DNA of 64,000 bases, from assembly GCA_003707065.3 (NCBI GenBank), contig PPXM03000006.1:558001-622000 (forward strand), read 5' to 3'. The position numbers and the translations under genes are program-made. The notes under the pieces were generated by a model that ran no database searches, had not been told where the DNA came from, and saw only the letters and a list, made by a program, of their open reading frames with translations. The stretch's first letter is position 1. Every line of letters starts with the position of its first letter. Shown in pieces: positions 41,739 through 59,195 of the stretch. Source of the stretch: Trigonopsis variabilis. Its lineage: Eukaryota > Ascomycota > Trigonopsidomycetes > Trigonopsidales > Trigonopsidaceae.

Positions 41739-46084
<4,346 letters not shown>

Positions 46085-57762: not shown

Positions 57763-59195
57763 ATGACCATAACGGCATCGCTACGAAGTTGCAAATTGTA
57801 AGTTTCAGACCCACTCAATTGATCTGAGAGGTCGCGTCCCTATAAAGTCTCTTGTCTCTTCCAGGTGGGGTTTCACGAGCTGCTCCATGCAGATGTTACA
57901 GCCGACCCCGCAGCAAGGTCTAATCTTCGGCCGAACAGGTTGGGCATTTGTTGTTTATGAGAAAAAAGGAATTGAACTGCATTCGATGGCTGGTTTAGCG
58001 TGTGTCGGTTAGAACTAATCATAACGTGGAGAGATGGGGTCATGTGACGGGTACGGATGAGCGATCTCCAGACATCTGAAACTCAAGAACAAGACTAACT
58101 ATGATCTAGTGCAAATCTCGGCTTTAAAAGATATCTATCTTCTTCAGCCGCTCGTCATTCATATTCTGATACGATCAAGAACTTGAAGATCAATAGCGAC
58201 ACTAAAGTTATCTTCCAAGATAAGTTGCCGGTTCGGTTGAGGAGAAAGCTAATCTTTACGCTTCACAGGAAAACAAGGTACTTTCCACGGTACTCAGGCT
58301 TTGGAGTATGGCACCAAGGTAAGACAATGGCATTATTTCGGCTAACAAAGTAGCTTGTGGGAGGAACCAACCCCAAAAGAGCAGGAGAGTCCCACCTGGG
58401 TCTGCCAGTCTTTGCCACAGTAGCGGACGCTAAGAAAGAAACTGGAGGTAAGTTGGAGCTATAAAAGCATATTCTGACCAAATTTTAGCCAACGCTTCAG
58501 CTATCTTTGTGCCACCTCCTTTGGCTGCTGCTGCCATTGAAGAGGCCGTTGCTGCCGAATTGGATCTTGTCGTCGCTATTACTGAAGGAATCCCTCAACA
58601 TGACATGCTTCGAGTGGTTGATATGCTCAAAAGCCAATCCAAGACTCGACTGGTTGGTCCCAACTGCCCTGGTATCATTGCCCCCGAACAATGCAAAATA
58701 GGTATCATGCCCTCTTCCATTCATAAGCGGGGACGCGTTGGCATTGTCTCGCGATCGGGCACGTTGACCTACGAAGCCGTGAACCAGACCACCAATGTCG
58801 GTCTTGGACAGACTCTTGTCGTCGGTATCGGTGGAGACCCGTTCAATGGAACAAACTTCATTGACTGTCTCAAGGTGTTTTTGGAAGATGAGGAAACTGA
58901 AGGTATTATTATGATTGGTGAAATCGGAGGATCTGCTGAAGAAGACGCAGCCGAATTTTTAAGAGAATACAACCTTTCTCGGGAGCATCCTAAGCCTGTC
59001 TGTGCATTTATTGCAGGTGTCTCTGCTCCCCCTGGACGTCGTATGGGTCACGCAGGCGCTATCATCTCTGGAGGAAAAGGAGGCGCCGAGTCTAAGATCG
59101 AGGCCCTGACTGCTGCTGGTGTCGTCGTTGAGGCTAGCCCTGCTCGCTTGGGTAAGGCTTTGTATGATGAATTCGTCCGGTCTGATTTACTTTAA
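57763..59195 (+). CDS. LSC1: mitochondrial succinyl-CoA ligase, alpha subunit
   Basis: Five exons: 57763-57797, 58110-58219, 58260-58318, 58354-58447 and 58489-59195, giving 334 residues (yeast 329). Introns are 312, 40, 35 and 41 nt; the second is AT-AC. The joined N-terminus [20 protein letters not shown] is a mitochondrial presequence, followed by YSDTIKNL and [18 protein letters not shown], the CoA-binding motif. [48 protein letters not shown] and the phospho-histidine in [14 protein letters not shown] are intact. With the beta subunit it makes ATP or GTP from succinyl-CoA in the TCA cycle. CTG codes leucine in SHLGLPVF, at a position conserved in the family. Confidence 0.96.
58220..58259 (+). 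other. AT-AC intron of LSC1
   Basis: The 40-nt intron begins ATAAGT and ends GCTAATCTTTAC. It interrupts the glycine codon (G + GC) of QGFTGKQG, which is invariant in this enzyme. No GT-AG choice nearby restores the motif and phase. The donor ATAAGT is U2-like and not the U12 consensus ATATCCTT, and the branch-like GCTAATC sits as in the GT-AG introns of this window. Splicing is inferred from the protein only. Confidence 0.85.

Follow-up and report, generated by a model that had tools for sequence, protein, structure and literature searches.

The stretch of DNA analysed here, which we call the window, is 64,000 nucleotides long and corresponds to C6:558001-622000 in a genome of 11.35 Mb and 15 contigs. 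It carries LSC1, the gene for succinyl-CoA ligase alpha, on the + strand at about 57.8-59.2 kb (Table 1). The relatives at the top of the homolog list (best 120 of 7999 scored) are budding-yeast proteins, led by those of Lipomyces tetrasporus and Dipodascopsis uninucleata (84% each). We found no second LSC1, since the sole match elsewhere in a whole-genome protein search was a 31%-identical relative on C4. In the 5' part of the gene (window 57763-58147), translation may begin at an ATG at 57763; a candidate intron of the form GTAAGT...CAG spans 57798-57864, and there is at least one further intron. The first exon in Table 1 is taken to begin at 58148, after the CAG at 58145-58147, but this start is a guess. 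Elsewhere in the window, at 41973-42080 and 42111-42188, lie the tandem C/D snoRNAs snR87 and SNORD24, also on the + strand.

Table 1. Features of LSC1 in the window around its AT-AC intron, with the basis of each assignment.
Feature	Position	Strand	Basis
LSC1 exon 5' of the AT-AC intron, ...NSDTKVIFQ + G	58148..58219	+	translation; query residues 1-26 matched
AT-AC intron, 40 nt, phase 1	58220..58259	+	sole placement rebuilding QGFTGKQG
Donor ATAAGT, U2-like, +5G, preceded by CAAG	58220..58225	+	bases; AYAARTAY implied in P0128 and P0042
Putative branch word CTAAT	58249..58253	+	inferred from the word
AC acceptor (TTTAC)	58258..58259	+	bases; unique placement
Alternative acceptor, in frame, first AG past CTAAT, GFT lost	58267..58268	+	placement enumeration
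LSC1 exon 3' of the AT-AC intron, GC TTC ACA GGA ..., 59 nt	58260..58318	+	translation, protein match
GT-AG intron, 35 nt, CTAAC	58319..58353	+	translation
LSC1 exon	58354..58447	+	translation, protein match
GT-AG intron, 41 nt, CTGAC	58448..58488	+	translation
Final LSC1 exon, including stop codon	58489..59195	+	translation, protein match

The original prediction placed an intron with AT and AC ends in LSC1 and held that joining the exons across it rebuilds the QGFTGKQG loop in phase. Both claims withstood an exhaustive enumeration of junctions, in which each last exon-1 base from 58150 to 58311 was paired with each first exon-2 base up to 58315, with a skip of at least 14 bases. A single pair restores the VIFQ-GFTGKQG loop, by removing the 40 nt between G and GCT in window 58219-58262 (G, then ATAAGTTGCCGGTTCGGTTGAGGAGAAAGCTAATCTTTAC, then GCT). 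VIFQ and FTGKQG do not survive together with any of the listed open GT-AG or GC-AG pairs. The position of the junction is fixed, because the flanking bases mismatch at both ends: the exon base ahead of the donor is G where the intron closes with C, and the intron opens with A where exon 2 opens with G. Retention of the 40 nt shifts the LSC1 frame. The loop can be trusted to mark the junction, since 119 of the 120 best-listed homologs keep GFTG (114 as GFTG[KR]QG, five as GFTG[KR]QA); the other, P0042, carries an insert. Most of the listed homologs are uninformative about whether an intron is present at this site. Judged from the coding sequence, the segment appears to have AT...AC ends at a coding junction.

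That the intron is natural and belongs to the major spliceosome, as first proposed, remains the best reading of the sequence, given a +5G donor, a yeast-like branch word, a usual length and the presence of U2 and U6. ATAAGT shares positions +2 to +6 with GTAAGT and has the +5G by which U2-type AT-AC introns are recognized in PMC2831892. The predicted resemblance to the flanking GT-AG introns is borne out: 40 nt and CTAAT here, 35 nt and CTAAC or 41 nt and CTGAC there. The putative branch A would be 58252, 7 nt upstream of the final intron base. The prediction was also right that the donor is not of the U12 type. The donor ATAAGTTG departs from the ATATCC-like U12-type consensus, and the branch region AAGCTAATC from the CCTTAAC-like one, both as given in PMC3033335. 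Strong model matches to U2 and U6 genes, with the GTAGTA and ACAGAGA words intact, were found in the genome. A search for U11 and U12, which the prediction had proposed, was run together with U4atac and U6atac; none of these four models matched the genome. Control genomes were likewise blank for all six snRNA searches, U2 and U6 included, and the apparent absence of minor snRNAs therefore rests on U2 and U6 as positive controls in this genome.

Comparison of LSC1 among related species, also proposed at the outset, was made at the protein level, and in two other yeasts it points to an intron start with A and contradicts GT. A profile built from the window's LSC1 exon 1 and 11 homologous pieces retrieved 197 short proteins, of which 120 were listed. 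At the intron site, 115 of these have GF or GL, three could not be parsed (P0129 stops before the site; P0142 and P0224 lack DK) and one, P0213, is a pattern artefact. The one protein with DK is P0128, 61 aa, the NCBI entry "hypothetical protein POJ06DRAFT_245032 [Lipomyces tetrasporus]". Its first 51 residues, through KVLFQ, are identical to those of P0001, the 337-aa "alpha subunit of succinyl-CoA ligase" of the same species, a member of class Lipomycetes. After KVLFQ, P0001 continues with the joined loop GFTGKQG, and P0128 reads DKYSNFARFC and ends. The joined loop of P0001 speaks indirectly for removal of the intron. The two proteins are encoded on different contigs, possibly of different assemblies. 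With a GT donor, the codon begun by the shared G would encode Gly; P0128 has Asp, so the intron should start with AT or AC. We infer that the L. tetrasporus LSC1 intron at the same site begins with A(T/C) and not GT; its 3' end lies beyond what P0128 reveals.

P0042, a 341-aa protein from a cluster of 29 (sources lgn and ENA), has QDKYLNTTQQLIRNYKLTRHVIIRFTGKQG around the site. As a guess from its ENA source and from intron size (median 71 nt, PMC4479816), it might belong to Geotrichum candidum. Its loop, ...KVLFQ-DKYLNTTQQLIRNYKLTRHVIIR-FTGKQG, looks as though a 66-nt LSC1 intron had been translated. When the codons were enumerated for restoration of Q-G-F, only phase 1 was possible, with a start of AT or AC and a last base of C or A; the insert is thus not GT-AG. 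An AC ending is one of the six allowed. The K-L-T codons of the insert can spell AAGCTAAC, a CTAAC branch word, and D-K-Y (GAY AAR TAY) is compatible with ATAAGTAY in P0128 and P0042 alike. With the insert region as query, 62 candidates included nine proteins at E<=0.001. One is P0042, and the other eight are insert-free proteins with QGFTGKQG. Because an intron start of this unusual kind is also implied at this position in other yeasts, the LSC1 intron looks old and appears to have been missed by gene prediction.

The suggestion that AT-AC introns might be a lineage trait held at the LSC1 locus, through P0128 and P0042, but not genome-wide, where 120 other candidate loci were unconvincing. 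The genome has 113 occurrences of ATAAGT..CTAAY..AC (100 listed, LSC1 among them) and 63 of ATAAGT..CTGAY..YAC (all listed). Since these counts fall below those of the reversed patterns, a rough control (383 and 102, respectively), there is no excess of AT-AC candidates. By contrast, GTAAGT..CTAAY..AG, with 684 occurrences against 396 reversed, is above its control. The candidate survey covered 120 stretches, with about 40 further places outside it (a batch of 20, eight on C9/C10 and 13 unlisted). Neither open-frame testing, applied to the first 40 stretches, nor a codon score on all 120 gave a convincing second AT-AC intron. The open-frame test listed 42 placements, and three stretches, L024, L032 and L042, were checked by eye; each was rejected, as it reads straight through or fits a GT-AG intron. 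The 120 stretches contain 173 AT-AC pairs, for which the codon score reached 2.9 at most, compared with 3.8 for LSC1. Scores of at least 2 were obtained for 1/173 AT-AC, 5/91 AT-AG, 2/32 GT-AC and 9/33 GT-AG pairs. The score is weak alone: AT-AG pairs, a negative control, reached 4.8, and at the default threshold of 6 it recovered 0 of the window's GT-AG introns. Scanning the window by reading frame gave a list of 16 GT-AG candidates from which the two short-exon LSC1 introns were missing. AT-AC introns do not look like a genome-wide class here; LSC1 appears to be the one locus.

We consider it very likely that 58220-58259 is an old U2-type AT-AC (AT-AC II) intron of LSC1, which the ordinary spliceosome would remove and which is probably trapped in this form. 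U1 and U6 would read ATAAGT via positions +2 to +6, and U2 would read CTAAT. When the exons are ligated, A as first base and C as last base would match each other, as yeast mutation work indicates. According to PMC6726248, which cites Parker and Siliciano (1993), AT-AC is second only to GT-AG in efficiency among the end pairs of a mutated standard yeast intron; removal by the major spliceosome is therefore to be expected. Single changes, to GT-AC or AT-AG, would splice badly, so that a return to GT-AG would need two simultaneous changes. PMC2831892 likewise proposes that AT-AC U2-type introns may be "trapped", because both end bases must change to regain GT-AG, and this requirement is probably why AT-AC persists here.

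The simplest account of the relatives is that one U2-type AT-AC intron, with its phase-1 position and GAT-AAG start, was passed down to two yeast lineages at the least, and probably to three, including L. tetrasporus and the yeast of P0042. Alternatively, AT-AC ends could have arisen separately in each lineage. The LSC1 tree (39 chosen rows) leaves room for this: it puts P0042 in a group of nine proteins with strong support (100/95), away from Lipomyces, and the window's gene stands separate from both without firm support. One gene is too little for placement, however, since the same tree nests filamentous fungi among yeasts. Separate origins are nonetheless unlikely, as all three sequences agree in position and phase and have a compatible GAT-AAG start, AT-AC accounts for 0.019% of annotated fungal introns in PMC7072748, and the 120 candidate stretches of this genome yielded no second case. 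How far back shared descent reaches is a more tentative matter. It is possible, at somewhat less than even chances, that the AT-AC intron was present in an early budding-yeast ancestor and kept its ends since the first and last bases change only together; it may perhaps be a U12-type remnant from the loss of the minor spliceosome, and PMC2831892 proposes a U12-type origin for AT-AC U2-type introns. If this is true, LSC1 would hold a natural long-term record of the pairing between the first and last intron bases.

The ends themselves could also be read differently. The first AG past CTAAT is CACAG, ending at 58268, and its use keeps the frame, so that an AT-AG intron would give a protein without GFT as a main or minor isoform. 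We regard this as very improbable: GFTG is kept in 119 of the 120 best-listed homologs, the full-length L. tetrasporus protein included, and poor ligation is expected of intron ends that pair A with G. Even less probable is an ordinary GT-AG intron altered by a sequence or assembly error or by a strain mutation. The analysis covered one assembly of the genome, but two separate wrong bases would be needed, precisely at both compensating places, and the A start is independently implied in L. tetrasporus and P0042. The idea that a minor spliceosome removes a U12-type intron can be all but dismissed despite the AT-AC ends and the minor-spliceosome RNA genes detected in one fungus, Cutaneotrichosporon oleaginosum (PMC7072748), given the donor ATAAGT instead of ATATCC, the branch word CTAAT, the four minor snRNA models unmatched in a genome search whose controls were blank for all six, and the finding of PMC10639083 that Dikarya lack minor introns completely.

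Fungi have very few U2-type AT-AC introns. The LSC1 intron resembles AT-AC II introns such as those of sodium channels in its AT-AC ends and its U2-like donor with +5G, and it would share their major-spliceosome route and proposed trapping (PMC2831892). It departs from them in being 40 nt long, in belonging to a yeast gene for a core mitochondrial enzyme, and in lying in a genome where no minor snRNA was detected. U12-type AT-AC introns have the same terminal dinucleotides and differ in donor and branch word, and no minor snRNA was found here. PMC6726248 states that AT-AC ends are not in normal use among standard yeast introns. It also describes a SUT635 AT-AC protointron and an alternative AT-AC event in RPL30 of S. 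cerevisiae, in which the budding-yeast major spliceosome joins such ends. Those cases are noncoding or alternative, whereas removal of the LSC1 intron is required for an intact conserved protein. Caenorhabditis elegans also has AT-AC introns, seemingly without U11, U12 and U4atac; 59 were found, at least 42 were judged real, and they are probably U2-spliced (PMC3033335). It differs in being an animal with many such introns, where LSC1 is one conserved locus. Searches of literature mostly outside subscription journals found no report of AT-AC introns in Lipomyces or Saccharomycotina and, for hemiascomycetous yeasts or Yarrowia, only papers with unrelated titles.

Gene prediction often disallows AT-AC introns. 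The NCBI model P0128, cut short, and the database protein P0042, padded, appear to read into the LSC1 intron, which points to an annotation fault. The other short LSC1 proteins show a different pattern. Among the 120 listed (P0128-P0247), 80 end exactly at GFTG[KR]QGT and 17 hold GFTG[KR]QGTYV. These ends suggest a GT-donor intron five codons downstream (KQ/G), distinct from the yeast FQ/G site, and these short proteins probably belong to filamentous fungi.
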